This document shows positions 17,926-42,379 of a DNA stretch of 42,379 bases, one piece after another. The stretch's first letter is position 1. Every line of letters starts with the position of its first letter. Source of the DNA: Cytophagales bacterium (lineage in GTDB: Bacteria > Bacteroidota > Bacteroidia > Cytophagales > Cyclobacteriaceae); NCBI GenBank assembly GCA_022360055.1, contig JAKSDO010000130.1, positions 1-42,379 on the forward strand, given 5' to 3'. Both the position numbers and the translations under genes were made by a program. The notes under the pieces are model-generated. The model ran no database searches. It worked only from the letters and a program-made list of their open reading frames with translations, and had not been told where the DNA came from.

Positions 17926-17933
17926 TGATATTT

Positions 17934-19721: not shown

Positions 19722-19733
19722 TAGAATTACTTT

Positions 19734-21263: not shown

Positions 21264-21267
21264 GCTG

Positions 21268-21275
21268 CAAAAATA
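21268..21275 (-). promoter_or_regulatory. Possible -7 box directly in front of guaA
   Basis: The minus strand reads TATTTTTG, an exact TAnnTTTG match ending 5 bases before the ATG at 21263, with a TTTTG about 23 bases further upstream (near 21299). If real, the transcript would start at or just after the start codon, so either it is leaderless, the start is downstream, or the match is chance. It lies in the 57-base hisB-guaA gap. Confidence 0.22.
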
Positions 21276-21320
21276 ATATTTAACTTTTGTCGACGACTCA
21301 AAATCAAAAAATATTTCGGG

Positions 21321-22415
21321 TTATAACATTCCCTTGGTGCTCGGAAGTTTATCCAGTTCATCCGGACTTCGTTTTACTGCCATCTTGATACATTTTGCCA
21401 AAGCTTTAAAAATAGCCTCAATTTTATGGTGCTCGTTATCGCCTTCTACCTTAATATTTAAATTACATTTTGAAGCGTCTGCAAAGGATTTGAAAAAATG
21501 ATAAAACATTTCGGTAGGCAGATCCCCGATTTTTTCACGGCTGAATTCCGCATCCCAGACCAGCCATGGTCTTCCTCCGAAGTCAAGGGCTACCCGGGCC
21601 AGGGCATCGTCCATAGGCAATAAAAAGCCGTACCTGGAAATCCCCTTTTTATCTCCTAATGCGATCAGCATGGCATCTCCGAGCGCAATTGCAGTGTCCT
21701 CAATCGTATGGTGCTCATCGACGTACAGGTCGCCATCTACCTTAATGCGCAGATCGATACTCGCGTGCTTGCCGATCTGTTCCAGCATGTGATCAAAAAA
21801 ACCAAGACCGGTAAGGATTTCCGTCTTACCTGTTCCGTCAAGGTTCACTTCAATACTTATATCCGTCTCATTGGTTTTTCGCTTTACTTTTCCAATTCGG
21901 TCGGGTAATCGCAGGTAATTGTAAATGTCATCCCAGTTATTTGAGCTAAAGGAAGCCTCATTATGCTTTTGGCCAAGAAGAATTGATTTTGAGCCGATGT
22001 TTTTTGCGAGTTGAATATCCGTGATTCGGTCACCGATTACGAACGAGTTGTCCAAATCAAATTCGCCATTTAGATAATGGGTCAGCAAGCCTGTTCCGGG
22101 TTTCCGGGTCGGGAGATGATCCGCCTCGAACGATCTGTCGATCAGGATCTCATCAAACACAATTCCCTCTCCTTCGAGGGTTTTCAGCATTTTATTATGT
22201 GCCGGCCAGAAGGTCTCCTCCGGGAAGGAATCCGTTCCCAGGCCATCCTGGTTACTCACCATTACAAACAGGTAATCAAGCTGCTCCCGAATTTTTTTCA
22301 GGTTTGAAATAACTCCCGGGACAAACTCTAGTTTCTCAAGCGAGTCTACCTGAAGATCTTCCGGAGGCTCCTTGATAATTGTTCCATCCCTGTCTATGAA
22401 TAATATTTTTTGCAT
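21321..22415 (-). CDS. hisB: Bifunctional histidinol-phosphatase / imidazoleglycerol-phosphate dehydratase
   Basis: This catalyses two steps of histidine synthesis. Residues about 1-165 are a HAD phosphatase (DRDGT with Asp8 and Asp10; SNQDG; RKPGTG; GDRITD). Residues about 175-364 are the dehydratase, with [23 protein letters not shown] (233-242) and [11 protein letters not shown] (328-338) providing the metal-binding histidines and glutamates. The loop that binds zinc through cysteines in E. coli HisB is here [12 protein letters not shown], without cysteine, so the phosphatase half seems not to have that zinc site. Its ATG overlaps the hisC stop by one base (TGATG), indicating translational coupling. 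Confidence 0.97.
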
Positions 22416-23458
22416 CAGCAGAGTATTTTAAGCTGCTTTACGAGCTCGACGTTTTCTTTTTCCGTACCAACTGTTATTCTTAGGCAATCTTCGCAAAGAT
22501 CAACTTTTGATCGGTCTCTCACAATAACTTTTTTCTCGATTAATTGGAGATAGACGTTGTGCGCATTTTCGATCTTAACCAGCAGGAAATTCGCATCGCT
22601 CGGATAAATCTCTTGTACGGAAGGAATTTTGAGGAGCATACTTTTCAGTTCTTTTTTCTGCTTCAGAATTTCTTTTACCATCGATTTCATTTCCTTATGA
22701 TTTTGCAAGGCTTTCAAAGCCAGATCCTGGGTGGCACCGTTGACGTTGTAAGGAGGTTTGATCAGGTTGAGCACATCGATTATTTCCGGGTCGGCAAACG
22801 CCATTCCCAGTCTGAGTGCCGCCAGCCCCCAGGCCTTGCTGAAGGTCTGGAGAATCACCAGGTTTTTGTGCCCGGCCAACTGGGCAATCATGCTTTTTTG
22901 AGGAGCGAAATCAATATATGCTTCATCCAATACAATTAACCCCTGAAATTTGTCAATGATTTCGACGATTGAGTCCGGTTCGATGCAATTGCCGGTAGGG
23001 TTATTTGGCGAGCAGAGAAAAATTATTTTAATGCCGGGTTCAACGGCTTCAATGATCCGCTCTTTGTCAAGCGAGAAGTCGTTGTTTAATGGGACACCTA
23101 CAACGCCAACGTCATTTATTTCTGCACTTACTTTATACATGCCATAAGTGGGAGGGGCAATAACGATGCGGTCTTTTCCCGGATTGCAAAAGGCGCGGAT
23201 CAGCAGATCTATCGGTTCGTCACTTCCATTTCCCAGGAAAATATGCTCCGGCCCAATATTTTTGATCGCGCCAATGCTGTGCTTGAGTTGTTTTTGATAC
23301 GGATCGGGATATCTCCTGTATTTATCGGCAGCAGTCGATCCGAATGCATTTTCGTTCGCATCAAGATATACGTTGGCCGTTCCTTTGAACTCATCCCTTG
23401 CCGATGAATAAGGAGTGAAGTTGAGCAGATGAGGCCGTAGCAGATTTCTGATTTCCAT
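22415..23458 (-). CDS. hisC: Histidinol-phosphate aminotransferase
   Basis: This PLP enzyme transfers an amino group from glutamate to imidazole-acetol phosphate. The 347 residues match the family, with [10 protein letters not shown] near the N-terminus, CSPNNPTGN at 149-157, LDEAYIDF at 177-184, and Lys208 in [14 protein letters not shown] as the Schiff-base lysine. The gene begins one base after the hisD stop and ends in a TGATG overlap with hisB, so the four his genes are tightly coupled. Imidazole-type aminotransferases can also act on aromatic amino acids, but the operon context fixes this one to histidine synthesis. Confidence 0.97.
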
Positions 23459-23459
23459 A

Positions 23460-24746
23460 TCAATCCCGGAGGTGTTTCAAACGTACGGATACTGCCAGTT
23501 TGTGCGCAATAAGCCCTTCGGCATCCGCCATTGCTTCAACAGCCGGTCCGAGGTTTTTGATTCCTTCTTCACTCAGTTTCTGATACGTAACTTTTTTTAA
23601 AAAGCTATCCAGTGAAACACCGCTGTACGCGAGCGCTGCGCGGTTTGTCGGTAGGGTATGATTGGTTCCGGAAGCGTAATCCCCGGCAGATTCCGGCGAG
23701 TAATTTCCAAGAAATATCGAACCCGCATTGCTTATTTGTTCGGCGACCTGATCGGGATTTTTCACAGATAAAATCAGATGCTCTGCCGCATATTTGTTTA
23801 AGACCTTAATTGCTTCGTCTTCATTTTTCACAACAATCGCCACGCTTTCTTCCAGGGCTTTTTCGGCAATCTTCCTTCTTGGCAGGTCAACCAGGAATTT
23901 CCGGATGGATTCCAGTGTTTGCGCAACCACAGATTCGATGGTTGTCACCAGCACTACCTGGCTGTCGGCGCCGTGTTCTGCCTGGGACAAAAGATCGGTG
24001 GCAATAAAATCCGGATTTGCCGATTCATCTGCAAAAACTGCCACCTCCGAAGGACCGGCAGGGAGATCAATGGCAACACCTCTTTCCGAAACCATCTGCT
24101 TGGCAGCAGTGACATATTGATTCCCCGGGCCAAATATTTTATATACTTTTGGAACACTTTCGGTTCCGAATGCCAGCGCCGCAATGGCCTGGGCGCCCCC
24201 GACTTTTACGATCTTATCTATACCGGTAAGTTGGGCGGAAAACAATATGGCCGGATGGATCTTTCCACCTGTATTCGGAGGTGTACACAGCACCAGCTCC
24301 TTGCACCCAGCGATCTTGGCCGGGATGGCCAGCATCAGAACGGTGCTGAATAAGGGGGCGGTGCCACCAGGTACGTACAGACCGACCTTTTCGACCGGAA
24401 TGCTCCTTCGTTTACAGATTACTCCGGGCATGGTTTCCACGACCAGTTCAGGGCTGCTTTGAGCTTTGTGAAATTTTTCGATATTATCCTTCGCCGTGGT
24501 GATGGCATCCCTGAGTTTTTGGTCGATTTGCTCACATCCATGTCGTATTTCCTCCCGGTTGACAACCAGCTCGTTAAGCTGAACATGGTCGTATTCCAGA
24601 CTGTATTTGAGCAGTGCGCGATCACCTCTGGTTTTTACATTCTTCAAAATCGGTTTAACGATTTTCTTTATACTTCTGAGTTTTCTGACAGGCCTTTTTA
24701 GCGCTGACTTCAACTCGTCACCGGTCGGATGAACTAATACTTTCAT
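23460..24746 (-). CDS. hisD: Histidinol dehydrogenase
   Basis: This NAD-dependent, zinc-containing enzyme performs the last two oxidations, from L-histidinol to L-histidine. Recognisable blocks are VPGGTAPLFSTVLMLAIPA, KVGGAQAIAALAFGTESVP, IFGPGNQYVTAAK, DLPAGPSEVAVFAD, LLSQAEHGADSQ and YAAEHLIL, with GDYASGTNHTLPT near the C-terminus. I choose the ATG at 24746 (MKVLVHPTG), one base after the hisG stop. A TTG at 24755, overlapping the hisG end, would add only three residues. The protein is about 428 residues, the usual size. Confidence 0.97.
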   Translation of the reverse strand: MKVLVHPTGDELKSALKRPVRKLRSIKKIVKPILKNVKTRGDRALLKYSLEYDHVQLNELVVNREEIRHGCEQIDQKLRDAITTAKDNIEKFHKAQSSPELVVETMPGVICKRRSIPVEKVGLYVPGGTAPLFSTVLMLAIPAKIAGCKELVLCTPPNTGGKIHPAILFSAQLTGIDKIVKVGGAQAIAALAFGTESVPKVYKIFGPGNQYVTAAKQMVSERGVAIDLPAGPSEVAVFADESANPDFIATDLLSQAEHGADSQVVLVTTIESVVAQTLESIRKFLVDLPRRKIAEKALEESVAIVVKNEDEAIKVLNKYAAEHLILSVKNPDQVAEQISNAGSIFLGNYSPESAGDYASGTNHTLPTNRAALAYSGVSLDSFLKKVTYQKLSEEGIKNLGPAVEAMADAEGLIAHKLAVSVRLKHLRD

Positions 24747-24747
24747 T

Positions 24748-25614
24748 TTAAACAATCATTTTTTCGATCGGTACGACCAGTATCCCTTCTGCTCCGGCAT
24801 CTCTCAACTTTTCAATTACCTCCCAGAATTCATCTTCATTTACCACCGAATGAATCGAACTCCATTTTTTGTCGGCCAACGGAACAACCGTAGGGCTTCT
24901 CATCCCCGGGAGTAATTCGATGATCTCTTCGATCTTATCATTCGGGGCATTGAGCAGGATGTATTTATTGTTTTTGCCTTTCTGGACAGATTCAATACGG
25001 AAGAGCAGCTTGTCAAGGATAATTTTCTTTTCCTCAGCCATCCTTTGGTTCCCAATGATAATAGCTTCCGAGTTGAGAATGGTTTCCACTTCCTTCAAGC
25101 CGTTACTTAGCAGGGTGCTTCCGGAGCTTACAATATCGCAGACGCCGCTGGCCAAACCTATGCTTGGCGCAATTTCCACAGAGCCGGAAATTTCATGTAT
25201 ATCGGCTGAAACAGCCTTTTTGTCCAGGTAATCCTGAAGAATTTTTGGATACGATGTCGCGATGCTCGCCCCTTCGAAATAACCGACACCCGTGTATTCG
25301 ATTTCTTTGGGAATTGCCAAACTTAATCTGCATTTGGAAAATCCAAGTTTTTTGACTACGTCTATATTTTTTCCCTTTTCAATGGCCACGTTCTCTCCGA
25401 CAATACCAATATCCGCAACCCCGTCGGCAACATAATCAGGGATATCGTCGTCCCTGAGAAATAGAAATTCCATGGGAAAGTTTCTGGCTTTTGATTTGAG
25501 TTTTCCAGTGCCTGAACTGAACTTGATTCCGCTTTCTTTTATTAGAAGCAGGGAATCTTCACTCAGTCGTCCTTTCCGTTGAATCGCAAGTCTTAATACC
25601 GTATTATTAGTCAT
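24748..25614 (-). CDS. hisG: ATP phosphoribosyltransferase, long form
   Basis: This is the first and usually feedback-regulated step of histidine synthesis: ATP plus PRPP gives phosphoribosyl-ATP. The 288-residue length and the C-terminal regulatory domain (about 210-288, LLNAPNDKIEEIIELLPGMR, SPTVVPLAD) identify the long, self-sufficient form, which does not need HisZ. LRLAIQRKGRLSEDS at the N-terminus and VCDIVSSGSTLLSNGL at about 158-173 are the PRPP-binding text. It is the first gene of the hisGDCB run. Only a weak imperfect inverted repeat (25656-25683) is visible upstream, and no leader peptide rich in histidine codons on this strand. Confidence 0.97.
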   Translation of the reverse strand: MTNNTVLRLAIQRKGRLSEDSLLLIKESGIKFSSGTGKLKSKARNFPMEFLFLRDDDIPDYVADGVADIGIVGENVAIEKGKNIDVVKKLGFSKCRLSLAIPKEIEYTGVGYFEGASIATSYPKILQDYLDKKAVSADIHEISGSVEIAPSIGLASGVCDIVSSGSTLLSNGLKEVETILNSEAIIIGNQRMAEEKKIILDKLLFRIESVQKGKNNKYILLNAPNDKIEEIIELLPGMRSPTVVPLADKKWSSIHSVVNEDEFWEVIEKLRDAGAEGILVVPIEKMIV

Positions 25615-30280: not shown

Positions 30281-31189
30281 ATGCAATCTAGTACAGGGAA
30301 AAAGGTATTCGTAGCTAAAGTCTCTGATGATATGTTGGAATACAAGGAGAACTTAGTGAAAGATTTGATGCATCACGGGTGCACCATTAGAGAGGCTGAT
30401 CCGACCAGGGAAAATCGCGAGCATATACGTGAAATTATTGAGCGCTGTGATGCTGCCTTACATATATTAAGCGACCGGGATTTTGACTTTGACGAATCCG
30501 GCAAAGGAGTAGAAGAGCAACAGATCAATTATGCCGTTCAATTTTATTTAAGTCAACAACTGGTTACAAATTCTTCGGAAAACGATTTTACCATCTATGC
30601 CTGGCACCCCAAATCCTCCACCGTAAATATCTTTGAGGAAGAGCATATCCCCGGACATCTTAAAAAAATTCAACAGTTTGAGGAGGTAGATCTTATCCGA
30701 ACAAATTTTGAAGATTTTAAGTACTATCTGCTTAAGAAAATTGAGTTTAATCCGTCCGAAAAGGCAAATGAATTTTACATCAAGGGCAGCGAGAATTTAA
30801 GTATATATCTTATGTACGATGCCATAGATGAAGATCATGTAAAAAAATATGCGGACTATTTGAAAAAAAGAGGGTTCAACTTGTTTACACCCGAATTTCA
30901 AGGTGAAATCCCCGAAATCAGACAAAGGCATGTAGATAGTCTGAAGAATTTCGATATAGCGATCGTATTTTCAAAAGAAAGCAGCATGAATTGGGTGAAT
31001 ATGAAAGTGATGGATATTTTAAAATCGCCGGGAATGGGAAGGGTGAAGAAGATTAAAGGAAAGGCTGTTTTTCTATCCGGGTCGGAGGAAATGTCACTTA
31101 CACCCATTGCACGAAGTTTTAAGATAATTTCTACCGCATCAGGTTCTCCGAAAGAACAATTGGAGGTTTTTTTGCAGGAATTGATTTGA
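30281..31189 (+). CDS. Protein with two tandem TIR-like modules
   Basis: This is a cytosolic protein of 302 residues without signal or membrane segments. Module 1 (about 7-150) resembles the TIR-like domain found next to nSTAND1 ATPases: KKVFVAKVSDD, NLVKDLMHHGCTI, IIERCDAALHILSD, EEQQINYAVQ. Module 2 (about 173-300) repeats the pattern: SIYLMYDAIDEDHVKKYADY, GFNLFTPEF, RQRHVDSLKNFDIAIVFSKE, NWVNMKVMDILKSPGMGR. The position of the catalytic glutamate of NAD-cleaving TIR domains appears to be Gln81 in module 1 and Lys242 in module 2, so NADase activity is doubtful. Module 2 is related to the last module of the protein at 34682-36163, including the (I/L)LKSxGxGR word. It is followed 126 bases later by the transporter gene. 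The role is probably signalling or adaptor. Confidence 0.72.
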   Translation: MQSSTGKKVFVAKVSDDMLEYKENLVKDLMHHGCTIREADPTRENREHIREIIERCDAALHILSDRDFDFDESGKGVEEQQINYAVQFYLSQQLVTNSSENDFTIYAWHPKSSTVNIFEEEHIPGHLKKIQQFEEVDLIRTNFEDFKYYLLKKIEFNPSEKANEFYIKGSENLSIYLMYDAIDEDHVKKYADYLKKRGFNLFTPEFQGEIPEIRQRHVDSLKNFDIAIVFSKESSMNWVNMKVMDILKSPGMGRVKKIKGKAVFLSGSEEMSLTPIARSFKIISTASGSPKEQLEVFLQELI

Positions 31190-31315
31190 TAACCTGGCAA
31201 AAAACGCAAATTTGGCACATTGCAGAATATTTTATTAGATAAACTAAATATTCAGGAAAGAATGCGATATTTTGGTATTTGATTTTGATGAATTCGCATA
31301 CTTTTTGCACAATCT

Positions 31316-34300
31316 ATGGTTAAAGCCCTCTTAAGTATTCTCAATGTCGTTGAAGGTGAGGAACGGCCGGTATTGATGATCCTGGGTTACGGCTTCTTTA
31401 TGGGCGTCTTTTTGGCCGCTTATAAAGTTGTCGCCACCACGCTTTTTCTAAATCAGTTAAGTGAGTATATCCGGGAAGCTTTTTTTGTTTCCGGATCGCT
31501 CGGTGTGCTTTCGACGTGGTTGTATGCGGTGGTTCAAAACAGATTTCACTACTCGAAATTGATCATTTTTAATATCGTCTCGATATTTATATTCATAGCG
31601 TCAGTCAAGTTGCTGTTTCTATATTTCGATTCAAAATGGCTGGTGTTTGTGTTATTTGTAATGCTCGGGCCGATTACCTCGCTTTTAGTGCTTGGCTTTT
31701 GGGGTATTTTCGGCCGGATGTTTGACTTGAGACAGTCAAAAAGAATTATTGGAGGTATCGATTCCGGACAGTTGACGGCCATTATAATTACTACATTCTC
31801 GATCCCGTTTTTAATCCCGTACATTACCGACATTACAAATATACTGATCATCGGGGAAATCGGACTTGCGATTTCAATTGTATACTTCCTTATAATCTCT
31901 GTCAGGTTTAAGCTTACCTCGTTTCACGAAAAACCCGCAGAGCACAAAAATGAGGCAAAATTTATAGTCATATTCAGGAACAAGTATATCGTATACCTAT
32001 CCATGTTTTTGTTCCTGTCAATGGCCGCCTTTGTCTTTGTTGATTATTCATTTATGAACGTTACGGAACAGCAATATCCGGACGAAAAACAATTGGCAAG
32101 TTTTCTGGGAGTATTTGAGGGCTCGATTATGGTATTGAGTTTATTAATTCAAACATTTGTCAATGATCGGATTTTGTCGATGTATGGAATCCGAACTTCC
32201 CTGCTGTTGTTACCCATAATTTTGTTTTTGTTTACCGGGCTTGCAATTGCTTCCGGTTATATATTCGGTTTTGACGTTTCGAGCCCGGAGTTCATATGGT
32301 TTTTTCTTTTTATTGCGCTTAGCAAGCTGTTTGTTACCACCCTGAGAGAAGCAACGGAAAACCCCGTGTTCAAGCTGTTTTTTATGCCTTTGGACAGTAA
32401 AATACGTTTTGATATTCAGACAAAGATCGAAGGTACCATTAATGAATTCTCAAGAGCCCTGAGCGGCGGAGTGATCCTGCTATTGGGATTTTTGCCATTT
32501 TTTAAGTTAATACACTATTCTTGGATTTTAGTTGCGATTGTCTTCGGCTGGGCCTATTTATTATATAAGATCTATCACCTGTATAAGGTTAATATCCGGT
32601 TGAAACTTGAAAGGCAAAAGGAAGAAGCCGATAAAGTGGAACAAAAGGGCAAAAATCTGCTGATCTCCAAATTGTTTGATTCAATCGAAAGCAATAATCC
32701 GAATCTAATGATCTTTGCCCTGAGGGCACTTTCAAAAGTCGCCCCGAAAATTTTCAGATCGAAGATTGAGGACATTAAAAACGATCATTCTCTGGGCCTC
32801 GCCGATAAAGTGCTTCAAACACTTGAAGGTGATTTTTCATTTATTCACATTGCTAATTTGAAAAAACTCGAGCAAAAAGATGCCCGGAAGCTTAAGTCGG
32901 AGAAACGAAAAGGGAAAACCGTTTTTGATGAAGAGATATCCGAAATGATTCGATCGCGCGATACGGCAGAGCGAAAACTGGCTGCCGAGTTAATAAGCGC
33001 AACGGAAATAGAGGAAAGTGTCAGCCTGCTGATCGAGCTTTTGAATGACTCGGATTCCGGAGTTATAAAGGCTGCGATGAATGCAGCGGCTGAATTGAAA
33101 AAAGAGGAATTGTTGCCATTTGTTCTCGAAAACCTCCAAAAGAAGAATTTTAAGGATATGGCTGCCGATGCTTTGGTAAAGTATGGAGAAGTGGCGTTTA
33201 ATAGCCTTGAAACCATATTTTACAATTCCGAGCAAAATGTTGATATCAAAGTGGAAATTGTTACGATCTACGGAAAATTGGGGGGTGAGCTTGCCGAAGA
33301 GCTGTTATGGACCAAAGTTGATTTCCCGGACAAACATGTCGTATCACAGGTTCTTATTTCTCTAAGCCACTGTGGGTTTGCGGCAAATGAAGATCAGGTA
33401 CCCCGAATCAAGCTTTTTATAGAGGAGGATATTGCCAATATTGTCTGGAACTTAAAAGCCATAGAGCAACTTCGAGAAGAAAATGAAGAAGAATTCAAGC
33501 CGATAATAGGATCGTTGCAAGAAGAAAATGATCACAGCTATGAACACATATACATGTTGCTTTCGATGATCTACGACCAGAAGTCCATTCAACTGGTAAA
33601 AGAAAATATTGAAACGCGGACGAATGAAGGTATTTCGTATGCCATTGAGCTTTTGGATGTTTTTCTTTCAGAGGACCTCAAGCAGAAAATTATCCCGATA
33701 TTGGATGATACTTCGGATATTGACATCATAAGGAGACTGCAGATGTTTTACCCGAACATTGAGATTTCCCTGGAAGAATTAATAAAACTGATTATAAACA
33801 GAGAGTATAACGCCATCAACAGGTGGACAAAGACAAGTATCATACAATACATCGGTGCAAAGAAAATATCGGAAGAGTTTAATATGGAGCTGATCGCTAA
33901 TCTCTTCAACCCTGATCAGTTATTAAGCGAGGTCTCCGCCTGGGCGATGTACCACCTGGATCAAAGGTTTTATGAGGAAAATATAAAAAGGTTGGATATG
34001 GATCAGAGAAACCATATTCAAAATCTGATGTTGGGTCAGAAATTTGGAAATACATCGGAACTTAGACCGCATCTGAAGTTTGAAATTGTAAACTTCTTGA
34101 AAAAGAAATCATTGCTTGCGGAATTACCAAGCTATATTCTGACCAGCATTGTTGATTTTATACATGAGATTTATATAGAGAACAAGACCATCATAAGTTC
34201 GGCAGAATGGCACAACGAGAGTTTTTACATCATCAAACATGGAGGCCTGGAAATAAAAGGCAATCAAGGGGAGTTAATGGCGCATTTCGGAGAAGGGGAT

Positions 34301-34492
34301 TTTCTGGGGGAACAGGTCAATATTGATTTGTTGGATGATCACATTTCATTTGGCGTAGTTGCGGACACGGTTTTACTGCAGATCGATAAAAATAAGTTTT
34401 TGGACCTCATTACCAACGAATATGAAGTAACACTTAAATTACTGGATTCCTTTAGTATTCAAGGTGAAATTACCGAGTTATCCGAAAATTAA
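31316..34492 (+). CDS. NTT/ATP:ADP-translocase-type transporter fused to HEAT repeats and a cNMP-binding-like domain
   Basis: This is a 1058-residue inner-membrane protein. Residues about 15-425 contain some ten to twelve hydrophobic segments in the style of the TLC/NTT nucleotide transporters or a related MFS-type fold (ILGYGFFMGVFLAAYKVVAT, LVLGFWGIFGRMFDLRQSKR, ATENPVFKLFFMPLDSKIRF). A charged linker leads to HEAT-like helical repeats (about 440-920, LAAELISATEIEESVSLLIE, LLNDSDSGVIKAAMNAAAEL). Residues about 930-1055 form a cyclic-nucleotide-binding-like beta-roll (FYIIKHGGLEIKG, FGEGDFLGEQ). The phosphate-binding cassette lacks its usual arginine after GEGDFLGE, so ligand binding may be lost or changed. 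NTT proteins exchange ATP, ADP or NAD; the substrate here is unknown. Lying between two TIR-like genes, it may couple transport to signalling. Confidence 0.75.
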   Translation: MVKALLSILNVVEGEERPVLMILGYGFFMGVFLAAYKVVATTLFLNQLSEYIREAFFVSGSLGVLSTWLYAVVQNRFHYSKLIIFNIVSIFIFIASVKLLFLYFDSKWLVFVLFVMLGPITSLLVLGFWGIFGRMFDLRQSKRIIGGIDSGQLTAIIITTFSIPFLIPYITDITNILIIGEIGLAISIVYFLIISVRFKLTSFHEKPAEHKNEAKFIVIFRNKYIVYLSMFLFLSMAAFVFVDYSFMNVTEQQYPDEKQLASFLGVFEGSIMVLSLLIQTFVNDRILSMYGIRTSLLLLPIILFLFTGLAIASGYIFGFDVSSPEFIWFFLFIALSKLFVTTLREATENPVFKLFFMPLDSKIRFDIQTKIEGTINEFSRALSGGVILLLGFLPFFKLIHYSWILVAIVFGWAYLLYKIYHLYKVNIRLKLERQKEEADKVEQKGKNLLISKLFDSIESNNPNLMIFALRALSKVAPKIFRSKIEDIKNDHSLGLADKVLQTLEGDFSFIHIANLKKLEQKDARKLKSEKRKGKTVFDEEISEMIRSRDTAERKLAAELISATEIEESVSLLIELLNDSDSGVIKAAMNAAAELKKEELLPFVLENLQKKNFKDMAADALVKYGEVAFNSLETIFYNSEQNVDIKVEIVTIYGKLGGELAEELLWTKVDFPDKHVVSQVLISLSHCGFAANEDQVPRIKLFIEEDIANIVWNLKAIEQLREENEEEFKPIIGSLQEENDHSYEHIYMLLSMIYDQKSIQLVKENIETRTNEGISYAIELLDVFLSEDLKQKIIPILDDTSDIDIIRRLQMFYPNIEISLEELIKLIINREYNAINRWTKTSIIQYIGAKKISEEFNMELIANLFNPDQLLSEVSAWAMYHLDQRFYEENIKRLDMDQRNHIQNLMLGQKFGNTSELRPHLKFEIVNFLKKKSLLAELPSYILTSIVDFIHEIYIENKTIISSAEWHNESFYIIKHGGLEIKGNQGELMAHFGEGDFLGEQVNIDLLDDHISFGVVADTVLLQIDKNKFLDLITNEYEVTLKLLDSFSIQGEITELSEN

Positions 34493-34681
34493 TTCCTATG
34501 TAAGGTTTTGTATAAAATACTGTGAAAGAGAGATATAAAGACTTTTGCTTTAATCTATTATTTATATACATTTAGCTCGAGAATATTTTAAAGCAAAAAT
34601 TGTTTTTTGGTTTACATTTAAATTATTGATACTTTTCCATTTATCTAACTGTAATCTATAAAGGAAATTGATACTGACCAT
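34493..34681. other. AT-rich spacer between transporter and triple TIR-like gene
   Basis: This 189-base spacer is very AT-rich, with no coding frame. It could hold a promoter for the second half of the cluster, but I see no exact -7 box and no clear hairpin. Confidence 0.4.
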
Positions 34682-36163
34682 ATGAGTTTTGGCCAACACA
34701 TATATATAGTAAAATCTGAGGAAGAAGAGCAAGACCAGATCACGCACGATTGGATCTCCAGCTTTCACCGGTTTTTAGAGCTGTTGCTCAAACGCTTATC
34801 CGGGGAACAAGTTTCAATAAATGTAATAAATCATAAGGAGTTGGACGTTGAATCAATGTATTCTCCGTTTATGCTGCTCATTCCTGTTGTTTCGCAAGAA
34901 TTATTAAATTCTCCCACGTTTAAGGAGGACCTGAAAGTCTTTCATGAAAAGGCAATTAACAAAAGCAAGAATAACATTTCGTGGAATTCAAGAATATTTA
35001 AAATTGTCAGGGAACCTCAGAAAGGTCATTTTTTGCTGGATTATTTGAGCAATTCAGTGAGCTACGATTTTTTTCATTTTGATACAAGTACGGATGAGCT
35101 GGTAGTTTATGATGATTTTACCGGCCCTACCAGCGAGAAGACTTTCTGGATGAGATTATACGACCTTGCTTATGACATTTTTAAAGTTATGGATGGATTA
35201 AAATCCATTGAAAATGAAATAGCTCAAATAAGTACCGAGATAAATACCATTGCGATCTATCTGGCCGAAGTGGGGGCAGATCTTATCTCAAAAAGAGATT
35301 CCATCAAAAGGGAGTTGATAAGAAATGGGTACAAAGTGCTTCCGGAAAAAAATATGCCCATCGATCTTGAATCGATTATGAAGCAAGTGAAAAAAGATCT
35401 TGCTACTTGTAATATGTCCGTTCATCTTGTAGGATCGGACTATGGCAAAATCCAAGGCTCCAATGTTTCAATAATCGACCTGCAAAACAGAATGGCGGCA
35501 GAGCACTTTAACGAACTCGAGAAGCTGGATTCAGACAGTGAATTAAATCTTGGAAGGGTAATCTGGGTCGCACCGGAATTAACAAACATAAGTGTAAAGC
35601 AGAGACTATTTATAGAAAACTTGAAAAAGGATTCGGATTCGATGCTAAGAGCCGATCTTCTTGAAACAACCATTGAAGAGCTCAAGACATTTGTAATAAA
35701 TAAAATCCATGAGGAGCTCAACAAGCGAAGGCAACTGACCGGCAGCGGGGATAAAGAGAGGAATAAAATTATTTATCTGATCTACGATAAATCCGAAGCG
35801 CACAAGTGTAAAAAAATAGAAAACTACCTCCTCTCAAATGGTTATGAAGTTATTTCATCGAACTTCTCCGGCAATCCTGATGAAATCAGAACTAAACACA
35901 ATGAGTACCTTCGCAAATGCGATGCCGCACTCATATATTATGGAAATGAAAATGAAGAGTGGATGAAAAGCAAGCAGAAAGATCTGCTGAAATCATTGGG
36001 CTTGGGAAGAAAAAAGCCGATAAATCCACAAGCAATATTAATAGAAAACGAATCACAACTTGATGAAAGCTTGGGCCTGAATGAAAAGGCAATGATATTG
36101 CAGAGCCATAAAAGGTTTTCACCAAAAGTAATAGAACCTTTTTTAGCCCGGCTTGAGGAATAA
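34682..36163 (+). CDS. Protein with three TIR-like modules
   Basis: This is a 493-residue cytosolic protein without signal or membrane segments. Module 1 (about 1-170) has TIR-like strands HIYIVKSEE and SPFMLLIPVVSQELLNSPTF, then a variable region to RLYDLAYDIFKVM; an acidic pair, Glu82-Asp83, lies near the expected catalytic position. A helical linker (170-190) follows. Module 2 (about 190-345) has the STAND-associated TIR-like pattern IAIYLAEVGADLISKRDSIK, ELIRNGYKVLPEKNMP, LATCNMSVHLVGSDYG and IIDLQNRMAAEH, with Gln268 where glutamate is expected. Module 3 (about 362-493) reads IIYLIYDKSEAHK, RKCDAALIYYGNENEEWMK and DLLKSLGLGRKKP, with Lys431 at that position. The stop at 36161-36163 is one base from the ATG of the nSTAND1 gene, so the two are translationally coupled and likely form a complex. 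Confidence 0.75.
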   Translation: MSFGQHIYIVKSEEEEQDQITHDWISSFHRFLELLLKRLSGEQVSINVINHKELDVESMYSPFMLLIPVVSQELLNSPTFKEDLKVFHEKAINKSKNNISWNSRIFKIVREPQKGHFLLDYLSNSVSYDFFHFDTSTDELVVYDDFTGPTSEKTFWMRLYDLAYDIFKVMDGLKSIENEIAQISTEINTIAIYLAEVGADLISKRDSIKRELIRNGYKVLPEKNMPIDLESIMKQVKKDLATCNMSVHLVGSDYGKIQGSNVSIIDLQNRMAAEHFNELEKLDSDSELNLGRVIWVAPELTNISVKQRLFIENLKKDSDSMLRADLLETTIEELKTFVINKIHEELNKRRQLTGSGDKERNKIIYLIYDKSEAHKCKKIENYLLSNGYEVISSNFSGNPDEIRTKHNEYLRKCDAALIYYGNENEEWMKSKQKDLLKSLGLGRKKPINPQAILIENESQLDESLGLNEKAMILQSHKRFSPKVIEPFLARLEE

Positions 36164-36164
36164 A

Positions 36165-39100
36165 ATGAATCCTAAAGAATTTGACATTCTTGAATCTTAT
36201 AATCAGCGTGACCTTGAACTATTAAATCCATTCCCGGGTTTAAGGCCGTTTACCTTTGAAGAAAGCCACCTGTTCTTCGGCAGGGAAGGTCAAAGCGATG
36301 AAGTGCTTCTAAACCTGGCCAAACACAGGTTCGTAGCGGTCATCGGCGCCTCGGGAAGCGGTAAATCATCCTTGATGTATTGCGGTCTTATTCCCATACT
36401 GTTCGGAGGCTTTATGACGGAAGCCGGCTCCGACTGGACGGTGTTGGTGACAAGGCCGGGAATATCTCCCATTGAAAATCTCGCGGAATCGATATTGAGC
36501 AAGGAAGAGAGTCATATTACTGCTTCTGAAGAAGAAAAGAATATTGGCCGCCGGATGACTTCAACCATATTGAGAAGCAGTTCCATGGGATTGGTGGATT
36601 CGGTAAAGCAGCTTTCCATTTCTTTTACAAAAAATATTTTCCTGCTGGTAGATCAATTCGAAGAACTTTTCAGGTACATAAAGACGGAAAGGGATGAGGA
36701 TGCCATCAATGAAGCTTCGGCATATGTAAATCTACTCATCAAGTCCATATCGCAAACGGAAGTGCCTGTCTATGTGTCGTTCACGATGCGATCGGATTTT
36801 ATAGGGGATTGTTCGCAGTTTCCGGAACTGACGCACCTGATAAACAAAAGTCATTATTTGATTCCGCAAATGACCCGGGATCAGCAACGGCTTGCTATTG
36901 AAGGACCGGTAGCGGTAGGGGGCGGGAAAATCACAAAGCGATTGGTTCAGCAATTATTGAATGATGTGGGAAACAATCCGGACCAGCTACCGGTTATGCA
37001 GCATGCGCTTATGCGTACCTGGAACTACTGGGTAAACAACAGAGAAGAAGAAGAACCGATAGATCTGCGGCATTATATAGCCGTCGGTAAAATAAACGAA
37101 GCATTATCTCAGCACGCCAATGAAGCCTATTCGGAACTGGATAATAAAGAGAAAGAAGTGTGCGAAGTGCTCTTTAAGGCCTTAACGGAAAAGGGCACTG
37201 ATAATCACGGGATAAGAAGATCGGCAAAACTGGAAGAAATTGCCGATATATCCGGAGTTCACCAGGAGGACCTGATCAATGTAATCGAAAAGTTTCGGGA
37301 GCCCGGGAGATCTTTACTGATGCCGCCTTCAAATGTCCGGCTAAAGTCGAATTCGATTATCGAGATATCTCACGAGAGCTTGATGCGTATCTGGCAGCGA
37401 TTGAAGAACTGGGTAGATGAAGAGGCGGATTCCGCACAAATGTACAGAAGGTTGTCGGATGCGGCAGAGATGTACCAGGTCGGGAAAACAGGTCTTTGGA
37501 GGCCGCCGGACCTGCAACTGGCCTTGAACTGGCAGATGAAACAAAAGCCCACGAGAACCTGGGCAAGAAGGTATAATCCGTACTTTGAACGCGCGATCGT
37601 TTTTCTTGAAACCAGTAAAACGGCCTATGAAAGTGAACAGAAAAGTAAGGAGCTCCTTCAAAAAAGGATGCTCCAGCGCACCAAGATGGTTGCGATTATT
37701 TTGGGGATTGCATTTGTGATCGCCATCATATTCTTTGTCTTTGGGTGGATTAAAAAGATTGATGCGGATAATCAGCGAGAGATTGCCGAACAAAACAGGA
37801 TACAGGCCGAGCAGAATGCCGCTTTGGCAGAAGAGCGAAGAAAAGAGGCGGAAATCCAGACACAAATTGCCCTGGACAACGCAGAATTGGCTGAGCGCGA
37901 ACGAAAAAGAGCGGAAGATGAAGCGAGCAATGCCCTTTATCAAAAAGGGATTGCCGAAAGGCAAACGGAAGTTGCAAATACCCAAAGACAGCTCGCACTC
38001 GACCGCGAGCGAATTGCAGACTCGCTGCGTCGCGTAGCAAATGAACAAAGTTTGCTGGCCCTGGATGAGCGGGACAAAGCAAATCAATTGAGGATGATAT
38101 CTTTGGCGCAGTCCATGGCGGTTAAATCCTTAAATATCATTGATACGGACTTAAAGACCCTTTTGGCATATCAAGCTTATACGTACAATAAAGAGTATGG
38201 CGGTGTAGTTTATGATAATTACATCTACGACGGATTGTATTATGCGAAAAAGGATAAAATAAAGGAAAGCCAGGGAACCAATCTAAACCGGTATAAAGGG
38301 CACAGGGATATGATCCGGTCGATCGTCTACGATCCCAATGGCACTGATTTTTACACTACAGGAAGCGATGGCAAGATATTGAAATGGGAGAGCCAAGATT
38401 ACACTTTCAGAACATTGTATAACCCGGTCTCAAACTATATAAACTATGATATGAAAGTGAGCCCGGATGGGAAATGGCTTATCGTGGCCGGAGATGCTCC
38501 GCATATTCTGGTGATTAATCTGGCTACACTGAACCCTATAAAGATTGAGGGGCACAAAGGACCGGTCACCAAACTCATGTTCTTGCCAAATTCCGAGTAT
38601 TTTATTTCATATGGCATTGAGGATAGCACGCTGAGAATAAATGATTACGTAAACAGCAGCGAGCTTATGAAATTTGATAAGCGATATACATCGATTTCTT
38701 TAAGCCGGGATGGATCAACCCTGGTTGCCGGAGATGAAAAAGGGAATCTTGACATATGGGATACCGACAATATGGACCGGGTCGAGTCATTTCCAATTTC
38801 CGAAAGCCCCATATATTCTATAGAATTTAGCCCGGACAACAAAATCATTGCCATTGGCAATGAAGATGGAGTGGTACAGTTGGGCGACCTGGTAGGAAGT
38901 GATATATTCTGGACCAAAGAAATCTTAGGACAGAGATCGAGAGTAAACAGTATTAAATTCAGCCCCGACGGCTCTTTGCTGGCAACTGCCAGTCTGGAAG
39001 GCACAGTTCAGCTCTGGGTGATGGAACAAATGGATAAAATGTTGCCCGTAGCCTTTAAAGATCACGATGATTATGTATGGAGTATTGAATTTAATGCGGG

Positions 39101-39293
39101 AAGCGATTACCTTTTGGCTGGAACAAAAGATGGTGTCTTAAAGCTTTGGCCCACAAAACCGGATTTGATGGCCCAGGATATTTGCAAATACTTGTTTAGG
39201 AACATGACTAAAACAGAGTGGGACAGATACGTCGGGGAGGATATTAGTTATGTAAATACATGCGAAAAGGCTGGTATAATTCCGGTAGAGTGA
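36165..39293 (+). CDS. nSTAND1 ATPase with transmembrane segment, coiled coil and WD40 propeller
   Basis: This is a 1042-residue signalling ATPase. The start PFPGLRPF at 22-29 is the nSTAND1 entry motif. Walker A is GASGSGKSS (61-69) and Walker B is IFLLVDQFEELF (158-169). LPVMQHALMRTW (275-286) and EISHESLMRIW (400-410) belong to the helical and winged-helix part. One hydrophobic segment (about 508-527) precedes a long charged coiled coil rich in Ala, Glu and Gln (532-645). Residues about 710-1010 form WD40-like blades (GHRDMIRSIVYDPNG, IKFSPDGSLLATASLEGTVQ, DHDDYVWSIEFN). The ATPase should lie inside the cell and the propeller across the membrane. I choose the ATG at 36165; a TTG at 36153 would overlap the upstream gene. 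STAND proteins oligomerise on sensing a ligand; partners are probably the TIR-like proteins. Confidence 0.88.
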   Translation: MNPKEFDILESYNQRDLELLNPFPGLRPFTFEESHLFFGREGQSDEVLLNLAKHRFVAVIGASGSGKSSLMYCGLIPILFGGFMTEAGSDWTVLVTRPGISPIENLAESILSKEESHITASEEEKNIGRRMTSTILRSSSMGLVDSVKQLSISFTKNIFLLVDQFEELFRYIKTERDEDAINEASAYVNLLIKSISQTEVPVYVSFTMRSDFIGDCSQFPELTHLINKSHYLIPQMTRDQQRLAIEGPVAVGGGKITKRLVQQLLNDVGNNPDQLPVMQHALMRTWNYWVNNREEEEPIDLRHYIAVGKINEALSQHANEAYSELDNKEKEVCEVLFKALTEKGTDNHGIRRSAKLEEIADISGVHQEDLINVIEKFREPGRSLLMPPSNVRLKSNSIIEISHESLMRIWQRLKNWVDEEADSAQMYRRLSDAAEMYQVGKTGLWRPPDLQLALNWQMKQKPTRTWARRYNPYFERAIVFLETSKTAYESEQKSKELLQKRMLQRTKMVAIILGIAFVIAIIFFVFGWIKKIDADNQREIAEQNRIQAEQNAALAEERRKEAEIQTQIALDNAELAERERKRAEDEASNALYQKGIAERQTEVANTQRQLALDRERIADSLRRVANEQSLLALDERDKANQLRMISLAQSMAVKSLNIIDTDLKTLLAYQAYTYNKEYGGVVYDNYIYDGLYYAKKDKIKESQGTNLNRYKGHRDMIRSIVYDPNGTDFYTTGSDGKILKWESQDYTFRTLYNPVSNYINYDMKVSPDGKWLIVAGDAPHILVINLATLNPIKIEGHKGPVTKLMFLPNSEYFISYGIEDSTLRINDYVNSSELMKFDKRYTSISLSRDGSTLVAGDEKGNLDIWDTDNMDRVESFPISESPIYSIEFSPDNKIIAIGNEDGVVQLGDLVGSDIFWTKEILGQRSRVNSIKFSPDGSLLATASLEGTVQLWVMEQMDKMLPVAFKDHDDYVWSIEFNAGSDYLLAGTKDGVLKLWPTKPDLMAQDICKYLFRNMTKTEWDRYVGEDISYVNTCEKAGIIPVE

Positions 39294-39310
39294 TAAATCA
39301 GTGTAGTTGG

Positions 39311-40372
39311 ATGAGGAACTTTTTAATATTTTTTACATTATTTTTACTATGTTTAACGACTTCATTATTTGCGCAGGACCAGTGTGCAATAGCCTTGAAT
39401 GATGCCGAAGATCGATATGAGCAGGGCAAGCTTTATGAAATTCCCGGAATCATCCAGTCGTGTTTAATTGATGGATTCTCAAAAGAACAAAAAATCCGTG
39501 CATACAGATTGCTGACGTTAACTTACTTGTTTCTCAACTATTACAGGGAGGCTGATAGCTCTTACTTGCAGCTCTTAAAGCTCTCTCCCGAATATCGGAC
39601 AAACGATGAACTGGATCCGATGGAGATCATAAATCATCATGAAAGCTTTACAACCAGGCCCAAATATTATCTGACCATGGGAAAGCTTGGATTTAACTTC
39701 TCCTATGCCAACGTACTTTTGGATTATAGTCTGTCTCAATCATTTGATGGTTCGGATAAATATTCAACCGTTTTGGGCTTTCATGCCGGCTTTGGGGCTG
39801 AGATGGTCTTATTCCGGGATTTGCATTTATCCGGGGAGTTTTTTATATCAAGAAAAATCCTTCGCCTGTCAGATCGGCATTGGAATTTTTATTTGACAAA
39901 TATGGATATTTCCCATACGGAGATAGAATTACCAATAGCTCTGAAGTACAACTTCTTCAGAGGAAAGGTGAATCCGTTTGTTTTGGGGGGGATTAGTCCC
40001 GGATTTTTGCTCGAATCCAATGTTCAAAACATTGAAGGGGCCTACATCGATCCCGACGAAGGAGAAGAATTTCCCGTACAGCCCAGGCCGGAAATAGGTA
40101 CGGGCGAATTTAAAAACAGGTTTAATTATGCGCTCCTCTTCGGAGGCGGCATTAATTATAAGATCGGGCTGAACTATCTTGTATTTGAGGCAAGATACTC
40201 AATTGGAATGTTGAATGTGACAAATACGAAGAACAGATGGAAAGAAGATTTTTCGGAAGGTCGGGATTTGAAATTTCCGCTTGGACATGTCGACGATGAT
40301 TTTAAGATCAATAATCTGTCTTTTTTTATCGGATTTGTTAAACCGCTTTATAAACCGAGAAAGATTAAGTGA
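39311..40372 (+). CDS. Exported protein with helical N-terminal region and outer-membrane beta-barrel
   Basis: This is a 353-residue protein with a signal peptide (MRNFLIFFTLFLLCLTTSLF, cleavage near FAQ). I choose the ATG at 39311, because the upstream ATG at 39260 overlaps the STAND gene and puts 17 polar residues before the signal. Residues about 24-110 are helical and TPR-like (CAIALNDAEDRYEQGKLYEI, YRLLTLTYLFLNYYREADSS), including two cysteines. Residues about 125-353 form a PorT-like or OmpW-like barrel with alternating strands (YYLTMGKLGFNFSYANVL, FNYALLFGGGINYKIGLNYL). It starts 17 bases after the STAND gene and probably belongs to the same operon, placing an outer-membrane component next to the inner-membrane ATPase. 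The precise family is not known to me. Confidence 0.75.
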   Translation: MRNFLIFFTLFLLCLTTSLFAQDQCAIALNDAEDRYEQGKLYEIPGIIQSCLIDGFSKEQKIRAYRLLTLTYLFLNYYREADSSYLQLLKLSPEYRTNDELDPMEIINHHESFTTRPKYYLTMGKLGFNFSYANVLLDYSLSQSFDGSDKYSTVLGFHAGFGAEMVLFRDLHLSGEFFISRKILRLSDRHWNFYLTNMDISHTEIELPIALKYNFFRGKVNPFVLGGISPGFLLESNVQNIEGAYIDPDEGEEFPVQPRPEIGTGEFKNRFNYALLFGGGINYKIGLNYLVFEARYSIGMLNVTNTKNRWKEDFSEGRDLKFPLGHVDDDFKINNLSFFIGFVKPLYKPRKIK

Positions 40373-40407
40373 GATATTTCAGTATATGTAATAATCGTCG
40401 TGTTCCG

Positions 40408-41649
40408 ATGCACATCAAAAGTTTTGGTGTGGTTTTTTGTGCCTGTATCGCATTCTATTCCTGCGATACTCCCGGGCGTGTGAAACCTTACCAGGATCAA
40501 ATATTCATGAAGTTGTACGGAGGGAATGGCTCGGAAGAAGGTAAAGACTTGTTGTTGTTGCCCGACGGTGGATTTGTGCTGACAGGATCTTCCACCTCTA
40601 CTGAAAATGGTTCCAAAGATGTTTATGTAGTTCGCACGGATAATTTGGGAAATGTAGTTTGGGAGAACAGATACGATGGTCAACAAGGAGATGATATAGG
40701 AAACTCTGTAATATTATCCGGAAATAATATTTATGTATGCGGGGAGAGCCAGGATAGTACATCCGCTTTGGGTTTTCGGGATGTTTTTGTCCTCAATATA
40801 AATTTGGATAACGGATCGTTGGCCGGTGATCCGAAAAGATATGGGGAAGATATTCGCGATGAATACGGTACCGATATAATAAAAACTGACAATGGTTTTT
40901 TTATTACTTCCACGATGTTACATCCGGATACGTCGAAATATTTTTTGATCGAGACAGATCCGAATTTGGATACAATTCCTTCGAGGTCGAGGTATGTCGG
41001 AACACAAAAAGTAAATAATTATAGTACGCGTTCTTTCGAAAATGAGTCTGATCCAAATAATCCATTCACATGTTTCGGATCGACGATACGTGCCGAAAAT
41101 GCATCACCCACACCATGGTTTCATTCTTTTTTGTACAGATCGGACGGAAATGCAACCATATTGCCCGAATTTTACAGCAATGAAAATGTAAATGAGATTT
41201 GTACGGATGCCGCACGAATTACCGACGGTGGATTTATTCTCTCCGGCCTGGTTGAAGAAGCCGGAATAAACCAGGAAATGATCGTGAAAATTGGTCCGGA
41301 AAGAAGACAAATATGGAGGAAGACCTACTCGAATGATTTTGGCAGAAGTGTGCAGAAATGCGGTATTGCTCAAACACTGGACGGAGGATATATTGTTTCC
41401 TCAACAATCGAATTGAATGATCCCTTAAACGATGAAATCAGTTTGCTGAAGTTGAATTCGGAAGGTGAAGAAGAATGGAGGAAAACGTATGGCAGCAACG
41501 AAGATGATATCGGAGCAAAAGTAATCCAACTGAATGATGGAAGTTATGTTTTGATCGGAACCATAGGGTTTGGCATTAATCCGGATTCACGATCAAAGAT
41601 GTGCCTGATAAAAGTGAATTCCAATGGCGAACTTATACCTTTAAATTAG
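40408..41649 (+). CDS. Lipoprotein with beta-propeller-like repeats
   Basis: This is a lipoprotein of about 413 residues (lipobox-like FYSC, Cys19 from the chosen start). Repeats of the pattern DGG(F/Y)-hydrophobic-TG/S are visible: PDGGFVLTGSSTS, DNGFFITSTM, TDGGFILSGLVEE, LDGGYIVSSTIEL and NDGSYVLIGTIGF, each followed by a strand ending in an (V/L)(K/R)(T/L)(D/N)xxGxxxW word. This is the layout of secreted beta-propellers in Bacteroidota. I choose the ATG at 40408 because it gives a compact lipoprotein signal; a GTG at 40369 overlaps the previous stop (GTGA) and would add 13 residues. It follows the barrel gene closely, so it may be a surface or periplasmic partner of it. Ligand unknown. 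Confidence 0.75.
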   Translation: MHIKSFGVVFCACIAFYSCDTPGRVKPYQDQIFMKLYGGNGSEEGKDLLLLPDGGFVLTGSSTSTENGSKDVYVVRTDNLGNVVWENRYDGQQGDDIGNSVILSGNNIYVCGESQDSTSALGFRDVFVLNINLDNGSLAGDPKRYGEDIRDEYGTDIIKTDNGFFITSTMLHPDTSKYFLIETDPNLDTIPSRSRYVGTQKVNNYSTRSFENESDPNNPFTCFGSTIRAENASPTPWFHSFLYRSDGNATILPEFYSNENVNEICTDAARITDGGFILSGLVEEAGINQEMIVKIGPERRQIWRKTYSNDFGRSVQKCGIAQTLDGGYIVSSTIELNDPLNDEISLLKLNSEGEEEWRKTYGSNEDDIGAKVIQLNDGSYVLIGTIGFGINPDSRSKMCLIKVNSNGELIPLN

Positions 41650-41751: not shown

Positions 41752-42379
41752 ATGAATTTTCCCTGCCGCACTTTATCGTTTGTATTGAGGAGATTGGTAA
41801 TGCTGCCTGTTTTCTTTTTTTCATTAAATTCCTATGCGCAGGTGAGCGTAACACCAACCTCCAACTCTTCTGATTTTTGTGTGACTGGCACTGCGATTAC
41901 ACTGGATAATATCCGAATAGACGAAAGTGCTACCGGTGACTTTTCCATAGGTTCTTACACCGTCCAGATCATTTTACCTGTCGAATTCGAATATCAATTA
42001 TCGAGCCCTGCCCCCTCTGTTACCTCTGGCGCAGGCGATATATTTCAGGCAACGGGTTTTTTTTTAACGAGTAAAGTATTTCAGATAGATGTTGTCTGTA
42101 TTGGTAATACCAGTATTGATTACCTGGAAGTAAGCGGATTGGTTGCTCAAGCAATCAGTTCGACCGCATCGTCGGACATAACTTTTGTTTCCGGAGGTAT
42201 GGTAAGTGGTTTGGATACTGAAACAATTGAGCTGACAAGTGACGCAGCGCCGACGGTGAGTGCTGCTGGTCCGGATCAGTCGGTGTGCATCACCGGCGGA
42301 GTTCCTGTGAGCCTTTCGGGGAATACACCGTTGGTCGGCACGGGAACGTGGAGCATCATCTCGGGATTGGGCGGAACAG
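41752..42379 (+). CDS. Start of a large secreted adhesin-like repeat protein (partial, runs off the window)
   Basis: An ATG at 41752 opens a frame that stays open for 209 codons to the window edge. It starts with a signal peptide (LPVFFFSLNSYAQ, with an upstream extension; the internal ATG at 41800 would give a shorter one). It continues with beta-rich text (FCVTGTAITLDNIRIDESAT, VQIILPVEFEYQLSS) and reaches AAGPDQSVCITGGVPVSLSG and GTGTWSIISGLGG. The latter is the repeat style of very long Bacteroidota surface adhesins and gliding or T9SS-secreted proteins. The T9SS sorting domain would be at the unseen C-terminus. It is in the same direction as the TIR/STAND cluster, 102 bases after the lipoprotein gene, and may be the surface end of the same locus or simply a neighbour. 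Confidence 0.75.
   Translation, partial: MNFPCRTLSFVLRRLVMLPVFFFSLNSYAQVSVTPTSNSSDFCVTGTAITLDNIRIDESATGDFSIGSYTVQIILPVEFEYQLSSPAPSVTSGAGDIFQATGFFLTSKVFQIDVVCIGNTSIDYLEVSGLVAQAISSTASSDITFVSGGMVSGLDTETIELTSDAAPTVSAAGPDQSVCITGGVPVSLSGNTPLVGTGTWSIISGLGGT

Follow-up and report, generated by a model that had tools for sequence, protein, structure and literature searches.

What might a TIR-like protein, a nucleotide-transporter-like membrane protein, a membrane-anchored STAND ATPase and two exported proteins do together in one bacterial gene cluster? The question is raised by six genes at 30281..41649 of contig JAKSDO010000130.1 from a Cytophagales bacterium (assembly GCA_022360055.1, family Cyclobacteriaceae). 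The window, as used here, is the whole stretch of 42,379 bases, which is one entire contig. A prediction made from the DNA alone (hereafter the original prediction) had described six co-directional genes that might form a trans-envelope sensor. Re-examination of the frames and families upheld these six genes and placed them in a unit of seven, all co-directional, in which the 3' end of the window falls 628 bases into the seventh gene (start 41752). We tentatively read the locus as an inherited trans-envelope signaling unit arranged around a giant surface protein secreted by the type IX system. The giant cargo protein and a STAND linker of near-constant length are two features absent from the earlier account. 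The genes and the main features within them are as follows (loci are numbered with L and genomes with G throughout).

30281..31189, plus strand: TIR1, a DUF4062-like plus TIR-like protein, paralogue of TIR3 domains 2-3
31316..34492, plus strand: NTT-HEAT-cNBD protein (NTT), with an NTT-fold membrane domain (about residues 1-430), HEAT repeats and a C-terminal cNMP-like domain
34682..36163, plus strand: TIR3, a triple alpha/beta (TIR/NDT-like) protein, catalytic Glu absent from domains 2 and 3
36165..39293, plus strand: STAND, an nSTAND1 protein with one transmembrane helix, an Ala-heptad linker and a WD40 propeller (alternative start TTG 36153)
37689..37751, plus strand: predicted single transmembrane segment of STAND, residues 513-533 of the 1046-residue frame
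37752..38108, plus strand: proline-free STAND linker, Ala at every seventh position, running 119 residues between the end of the transmembrane segment and the AQSMAVKSL motif
39311..40372, plus strand: OMB, an exported N-terminal part (signal peptide by eye, Cys pair, weak TPR match) followed by an OMP_b-brl_2 beta-barrel
40408..41649, plus strand: LIPO, a propeller-type lipoprotein with weak family matches (ATG 40408; the frame opens at GTG 40369)
41752..42379, plus strand: N-terminal part of the giant secreted protein, truncated where the contig ends, with domain A5 at 41839-42261

Gene order and inheritance of the operon

Matches to NTT and TIR3 were found in 42 and 36, respectively, of 59 close relatives (E 0.001). 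Across 242 genomes sampled evenly from the order, TIR3 was detected in 48 (E 1e-10) and NTT in 98 (E 1e-40), and every one of the 48 TIR3 genomes has NTT somewhere. Among the NTT matches listed, NTT lies within 4 kb of at least 40 of 52 TIR3 loci in this sample, although a weak NTT may stand beside a TIR3 locus scored as split. The 52 loci are what remained of 59 TIR3 places after removal of the latter half of a gene divided between contigs (G122), the window's own TIR1 and five weak, incomplete matches of 65-83 bits (G095, G109, G059, G023 and G228). Independent occurrence of the genes without conserved adjacency, which would have counted against the original prediction, is therefore not what is seen. 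A sample of the class gave TIR3 matches in 15 of 396 genomes, four of them strong and outside the order (G426, G526, G585 and G647), and G585 has the whole operon (L150).

The search for the same gene order in relatives that had been proposed with the original prediction was successful: NTT-TIR3-STAND-OMB-LIPO recurs in 28 of 80 fetched stretches (with the STAND frame split in two of these, L069 and L158), a count that is no natural frequency because the stretches were picked for an NTT or TIR3 hit. Four stretches have the same order plus one extra gene between NTT and TIR3, which in all four (L080, L100, L159 and L150) encodes a HAMP-SpoIIE (PP2C-type) phosphatase, hinting at a phospho-signaling branch of the same system. 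The genes are closely packed. Median gaps, calculated from the starts of the longest frames, are 40 bp for NTT-TIR3 (32 pairs), 1 bp for TIR3-STAND (49 pairs), 3 bp for STAND-OMB (47 pairs), -4 bp for OMB-LIPO (43 pairs) and 60 bp from LIPO to the next frame (38 pairs).

Variant arrangements were also seen. In one operon of G040 (L078/L225) LIPO and the long frame that follows it are inverted and stand divergently beside OMB, with adjacency kept. At L104, L105 and L149 a variant TIR3-STAND pair has nearby both an NTT-like gene and one encoding TonB-dependent receptor domains, for which the Pfam evidence is limited to L105 and L149. It looks as though a different outer-membrane partner had taken the place of the barrel.

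Distances in the gene trees, built within length and score limits from 45 NTT, 33 TIR3, 44 STAND, 45 OMB and 41 LIPO sequences, agree best for NTT-TIR3 (r 0.82), NTT-STAND and OMB-LIPO (both 0.74) and STAND-OMB (0.67), followed by TIR3-STAND (0.64), STAND-LIPO (0.62), NTT-LIPO (0.56) and NTT-OMB (0.41). For each of these pairs, 0 of 999 permutations gave a value as high. In the genomes with two operons (G012, G017, G020 and G023) the copies fall in the same two groups in the NTT tree and the STAND tree, and the second operon copies of G019 and G040 likewise group alike. Because agreement of the trees would follow from shared descent alone as well, stronger evidence for one unit comes from the way the genes abut and the paralogues sort. 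Averaged over pairs from 26 common loci, STAND proteins are 46.0% identical, compared with 31.7% for NTT, 29.2% for TIR3, 28.5% for OMB and 22.8% for LIPO.

Twelve flanking gene families are each common to 3-10 of 39 loci, the largest spanning ten genera, and we read the inheritance of the operon as mainly vertical. In the window itself, the minus-strand genes upstream (16636-25614) resemble by eye those of housekeeping enzymes (glutamate-semialdehyde aminotransferase, GMP synthase and histidine genes). Co-occurrence with the type IX secretion protein SprA was also considered as a sign of dependence on that system. SprA is present in 48 of 48 TIR3 genomes versus 174 of 194 genomes lacking TIR3 (p 0.017), a difference given no weight since 19 of the 20 SprA-less genomes are one family of 0.7-2.7 Mb genomes.

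The surface proteins and the STAND rod

Complete giant proteins in relatives have 1,530 to 5,125 residues (among the matches listed) and carry PKD or Ig-like repeats, with SprB repeats in one. A type IX secretion sorting domain (PF18962) is found at the C-terminus of all five complete giants scanned, and TIGR04183 in three of three. The relatives thus have the mark of type A cargo of the type IX system, whereas the window copy is cut before its C-terminus. The type B sorting domain (TIGR04131) was not among the NCBIfam matches listed for the three giants scanned, in which type A was found. In all seven genomes of the genus, the window included (relatives L081-L086), the contig ends within the giant gene or immediately next to it, probably owing to its repeats.

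An N-terminal domain, A5, is common to 20 of 39 positional giants, the window included. These 39 were taken as the next co-directional frames of at least 150 residues, and at least five of them are other genes. Searching 23 genomes with a model of A5 gave 12 hits, of which 11 fall in the operon's giant gene and the twelfth in an orphan giant of G040. Eight of these 11 sequences had served to build the model and three are new (G004, G012 and G013). The weight rests on the absence of other places in the 23 genomes. By these matches A5 appears nearly confined to this operon. The orphan (L224, G040:C1:8866000-8885900) is a 4,114-residue frame with A5, and no operon gene was seen in that stretch. 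In L095, L099 and L108 the gene after the lipoprotein or barrel looks by eye like one for a housekeeping enzyme, and the giant is missing or elsewhere.

The giants resemble the SprB-type adhesins (PMC12618676) in being giant type IX cargo, and one giant of the operon also has SprB repeats. However, the sorting domain is of type A rather than type B, and inner-membrane STAND and NTT genes belong to the unit. In Flavobacterium it is PorV that deals with type A sorting domains (PMC12618676).

Two further proteins are predicted to reach the outer membrane. The window OMB has a PF13568 barrel and, by eye, a signal peptide, and two Cys residues are invariant in 32 aligned OMB proteins. The lipobox Cys of LIPO is invariant in 31 of 31 aligned proteins. 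A rougher lipobox rule found a Cys in 41 of 41 but picked an earlier Cys for the window copy.

The STAND protein of the window matches nSTAND1 (PF20703, E 3.6e-96) and has a P-loop. A Walker A pattern is present in 37 and a Walker B pattern in 41 of 44 STAND proteins. A single strong hydrophobic peak, taken as the membrane helix, was seen in 39 of 39 proteins, with 4-8 Lys or Arg residues before and 0-5 after it. By the positive-inside rule this excess before the helix would put the ATPase inside and the propeller outside the inner membrane. The linker between helix and propeller has 109-134 residues and zero Pro in 44 of 44 proteins, and 38 of the 44 lengths are 119/120, 126/127 or 133/134, that is, one-heptad steps. 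Ala recurs at every seventh residue over a span of 99-120 residues in 39 of the 44 (29-78 residues in the other five). At 0.15 nm each, 120 residues would extend about 18 nm if fully helical, which is the scale of a periplasm. With one membrane helix and a linker of this length, the propeller is expected close to the outer membrane. In 43 of the 44 proteins the propeller ends in a C-terminal Cys pair.

Linker controls were drawn from 11 STAND-matching frames, two of which lacked a clear membrane peak (0.78 and 0.56) and were dropped. In the remaining nine nSTAND1 frames from outside the operon, one or two such Ala residues were found in seven, one span covered 57 residues and one covered 78, so that partial coils also occur outside the operon. 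Note that L218 and L223 look like the same type, and hence the controls are not all independent, and that three controls have weak peaks (1.4-1.8). L218, L219 and L223 contain a different recurring pair of nSTAND1-WD40 genes, and the neighbor in L223 is a 711-residue frame with DUF4062 and an N-terminus like that of a class III cyclase by eye.

Proteins of the nSTAND1 type have been named in conflict systems, with mention of some periplasmic or membrane forms (PMC10907252), and STAND and propeller conflict systems in general are covered elsewhere, where the name nSTAND1 is not used in the part available (PMC7159879). The operon protein is like the nSTAND1 conflict proteins (PMC10907252) in having a STAND ATPase with a sensor part. 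It differs from the STAND conflict systems of both accounts in its rod of near-constant length and its outer-membrane partners, and in that no effector enzyme was found here.

The TIR-like and NTT proteins

TIR1 of the window matches Pfam DUF4062 (E 3.5e-4) and TIR_2 (E 1e-4), both below the curated cut-off, and resembles TIR3 residues 191-461 at 22%. A TIR1 upstream of NTT is seen in the genus of the window. Both DUF4062/TIR family matches and a TIR-like fold were found. In fold comparison the TIR3 domains resemble nucleotide-binding NDT/DNPH1 proteins (rows spanning 188-348 and 360-493). Domain 1, outside these rows, has a weak sequence match to a plant TIR (E 0.097), and the Foldseek matches to the full TIR3 model were poor over the whole chain.

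The catalytic Glu position of domain 2, set by alignment to a DUF4062 protein that carries E there (L167), is Q in 24 of 26 TIR3 proteins and E in two. That of domain 3, placed by a W+4 rule which we assume to apply, is K in 26 of 26, and TIR1 has Q and K at the two positions in six of six. The TIR-like proteins are therefore probably not enzymes, judging by these replacements. A TIR NADase effector was rejected on this ground. The Swarozyc antiphage system (PMC13174449, a preprint) has DUF4062 proteins that act as TIR-like NADases, and the likeness extends beyond the DUF4062 match of TIR3 to a tie with a STAND-type ATPase having WD40 repeats. In contrast to TEP1, which has DUF4062 and the STAND-type ATPase with WD40 in one chain, STAND is here a separate membrane protein, the catalytic Glu is replaced by Q or K and no sign of a defense setting was found in the scans made.

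The NTT fold of the second gene is clear from sequence profile or structure. Four charged residues, K155, E245, E385 and K527, are given for AtNTT1 (PMC4256464). Our numbering was taken from the printed chain, in which residues 71, 161, 301 and 443 are K, E, E and K (a constant offset of 84), and the comparison covers E245, E385 and K527, as K155 falls outside the alignment. The E245 position is Pro in 24 of 25 family members, the E385 position is D or E in 21 and the K527 position is R or K in 13. The charged residues of the NTT (TLC) nucleotide transporters are thus not kept as a set, and the replacement of one transport residue makes ATP/ADP exchange doubtful. In addition, the invariant Lys353 of NTT aligns with a Glu of the solved NTTs, the Lys of which lies one place before.

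In the cNMP-like domain no conserved phosphate-binding Arg was seen in the alignment, although the loop aligns poorly. At the place where the Arg motif that we presume for cNMP domains would lie, the six commonest residues, covering 28 of 35 rows, include no Arg. Classic cAMP control through this domain was therefore set low, and the sensor role once attributed to the domain was not supported by this loop. The suggested change of nucleotide balance through the transporter is likewise unproven, given the Pro at E245 and the persistence of NTT alone at two loci (L072 and L090).

Fusions of the types NTT-HEAT and NTT-HEAT-cNBD are reported to be widespread in bacteria, with a function not known at the time (Major et al. 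2017, PMC5381601). The domain order is that of gene 2. The available part of that paper does not describe the fusions in an operon alongside STAND, TIR, barrel or type IX cargo genes, and the present family differs in its replaced E245.

A trans-envelope model and its alternatives

How might these parts work together? The outer module of the proposed unit would comprise the giant, the beta-barrel protein with its N-terminal part in the periplasm and the propeller-type lipoprotein. The inner module would consist of the NTT-fold membrane protein with its HEAT and cNMP-like domains plus a non-catalytic TIR/NDT-fold adaptor. STAND would be the bridge: its ATPase would lie in the cytoplasm, a single helix would cross the membrane, and a helical rod about 120 residues long would hold the WD40 propeller next to the outer membrane. 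Barrel and lipoprotein might read the state of the giant (bound, unbound or incompletely exported), and the signal would pass to the WD40 tip and then down the rod, switching the STAND ATPase. The TIR adaptor would hand it to the HEAT/cNMP platform of the NTT protein, of which the transport or receptor state would be the output, the weakest step of this model. We lean toward an outside-in direction by analogy, since sensing in APAF-1-like STAND proteins is the task of the WD40 propeller, as stated for APAF-1 (PMC13174449, preprint). Of the trans-envelope sensor first proposed, the conserved unit and the parts predicted to span the envelope stand, whereas the change of nucleotide balance is unproven and the conflict part finds little support.

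Several observations weigh against this model. The contacts between the parts are ones that we infer, as are the topology, the signal direction and the output, whereas the make-up and order of the unit, its common inheritance, the single hydrophobic helix, the linker length, the loss of the TIR catalytic residues and the sorting domain of the giant can be read from sequence. A5 is found in only 20 of the 39 downstream genes, and in at least five of the 39 loci (L095, L099, L108, L111 and L116) the lipoprotein or barrel gene is followed, judging by eye, by something other than a giant. NTT and TIR3 are apart in 12 of 52 loci (among the NTT matches listed), nine of the 12 being from one genus, and TIR3 is absent from eight of the 80 fetched stretches that are otherwise complete. 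L072 and L090 have NTT without other operon genes at a shared chromosomal place. Their flanks are common to loci with NTT-STAND-OMB-LIPO and a long downstream frame, and the remainder of the operon seems to have been lost from them. The TIR3-OMB and TIR3-LIPO trees barely agree (r 0.18, with 41 and 81 of 999 permutations as high), NTT distances correlate with those of the outer genes too (NTT-OMB and NTT-LIPO, above), and plain vertical descent also predicts agreeing trees. Shared flanks occur in only 16 of the 39 loci, the genus of the window not among them, and the C-terminal Cys pair of STAND may, we presume, predate the operon.

Control in the opposite direction, inside-out, is rather unlikely but survives best among the alternatives. 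The cytoplasmic STAND, TIR and NTT parts would sense a nucleotide or stress and via the rod decide export, holding or release of the giant. This would work in the manner of LapA/LapD/LapG, an envelope-crossing control of a giant adhesin, through unrelated proteins, with the giant perhaps held by its N-terminal domain. The likeness is an analogy only: we know of no protein family common to LapA/LapD/LapG and this operon, and neither LapD/LapG homologues nor a protease are among the families listed for the window proteins (for STAND, the best 25 of 57 Pfam and 25 of 27 NCBIfam matches). Inside-out control has the same anatomy as the outside-in model and would suit the Walker patterns of STAND, the resemblance of the TIR3 domains to nucleotide-binding NDT/DNPH1, the near restriction of A5 to the operon and the HAMP-SpoIIE phosphatase of four loci. 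Against it are the absence of a protease among those listed families, the downstream genes in which A5 is not found and the dedicated barrel, which is not needed for export since PorV handles type A domains in Flavobacterium (PMC12618676).

A role in phage defense or programmed death, with STAND sensing phage and a TIR or NTT effector depleting nucleotides, is unlikely. Such a role recalls the Swarozyc NADases (PMC13174449, preprint) and the naming of nSTAND1 proteins in conflict systems (PMC10907252). However, the catalytic Glu of the TIR domains is replaced, the propeller is predicted to lie outside the cytoplasm, the six proteins get only weak repeat and P-loop matches from PADLOC, and the seven scanned of 18 upstream open reading frames of the window (at least 100 residues) gave zero PADLOC matches. 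TIR3 had no match among 72,556 plasmid records, and flanking genes are shared across genera in the 16 loci. A mobile defense island was set low on the plasmid, upstream PADLOC and flank results, and the conflict or phage connection hinted at in the original prediction finds little support.

Nutrient uptake is more improbable still. Here the giant would bind nucleic acid or organic phosphate, the barrel and lipoprotein would pass on the products, and NTT would import nucleotides or phosphate compounds, in line with its clear fold and the acidic residue at the E385 position. However, no nuclease or phosphatase for export is among the families listed for the operon proteins, the barrel matches OMP_b-brl_2 rather than a TonB-dependent receptor, E245 is Pro, and a STAND ATPase with a rod is left unexplained.

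Least probable is mere neighborhood, in which the surface-protein genes and the NTT, TIR and STAND genes are separate units close by chance or shared expression, as the split loci, the loci without an adjoining giant and the weak agreement of the TIR3 tree with the OMB and LIPO trees might suggest, since the STAND-OMB gap is so short, the STAND trees agree with both sides and one locus of the split genus retains TIR3-STAND-OMB-LIPO plus a long downstream frame together, with NTT elsewhere (L151, L152).

Each of the families is known. On sequence grounds we rate their combination, the rod and the dead TIR sites here as new as a system, the function being predicted only. No description of this gene set was found in the titles and abstract openings among the best matches listed from the open-licence PMC literature, the coverage of which is partial and gives no proof of absence. 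Conceivably, though we put this forward with more reserve than the trans-envelope model itself, the operon represents a new class of envelope machine, in which a STAND rod couples a giant surface protein to a nucleotide-binding, non-catalytic TIR/NDT adaptor and an NTT-fold receptor or transporter, so that surface contact would set the nucleotide economy, or the reverse. If this is true, a STAND switch like those known from immunity and cell death would serve as a trans-envelope link to a secreted surface protein, with the rod as a ruler of set length. Partners and an assay would become available for the NTT-HEAT-cNBD fusions, which had no function assigned when they were reported in 2017, TIR/NDT folds would serve as adaptors with a conserved dead site, and the type IX surface proteins of Bacteroidota would have an extra layer of control.

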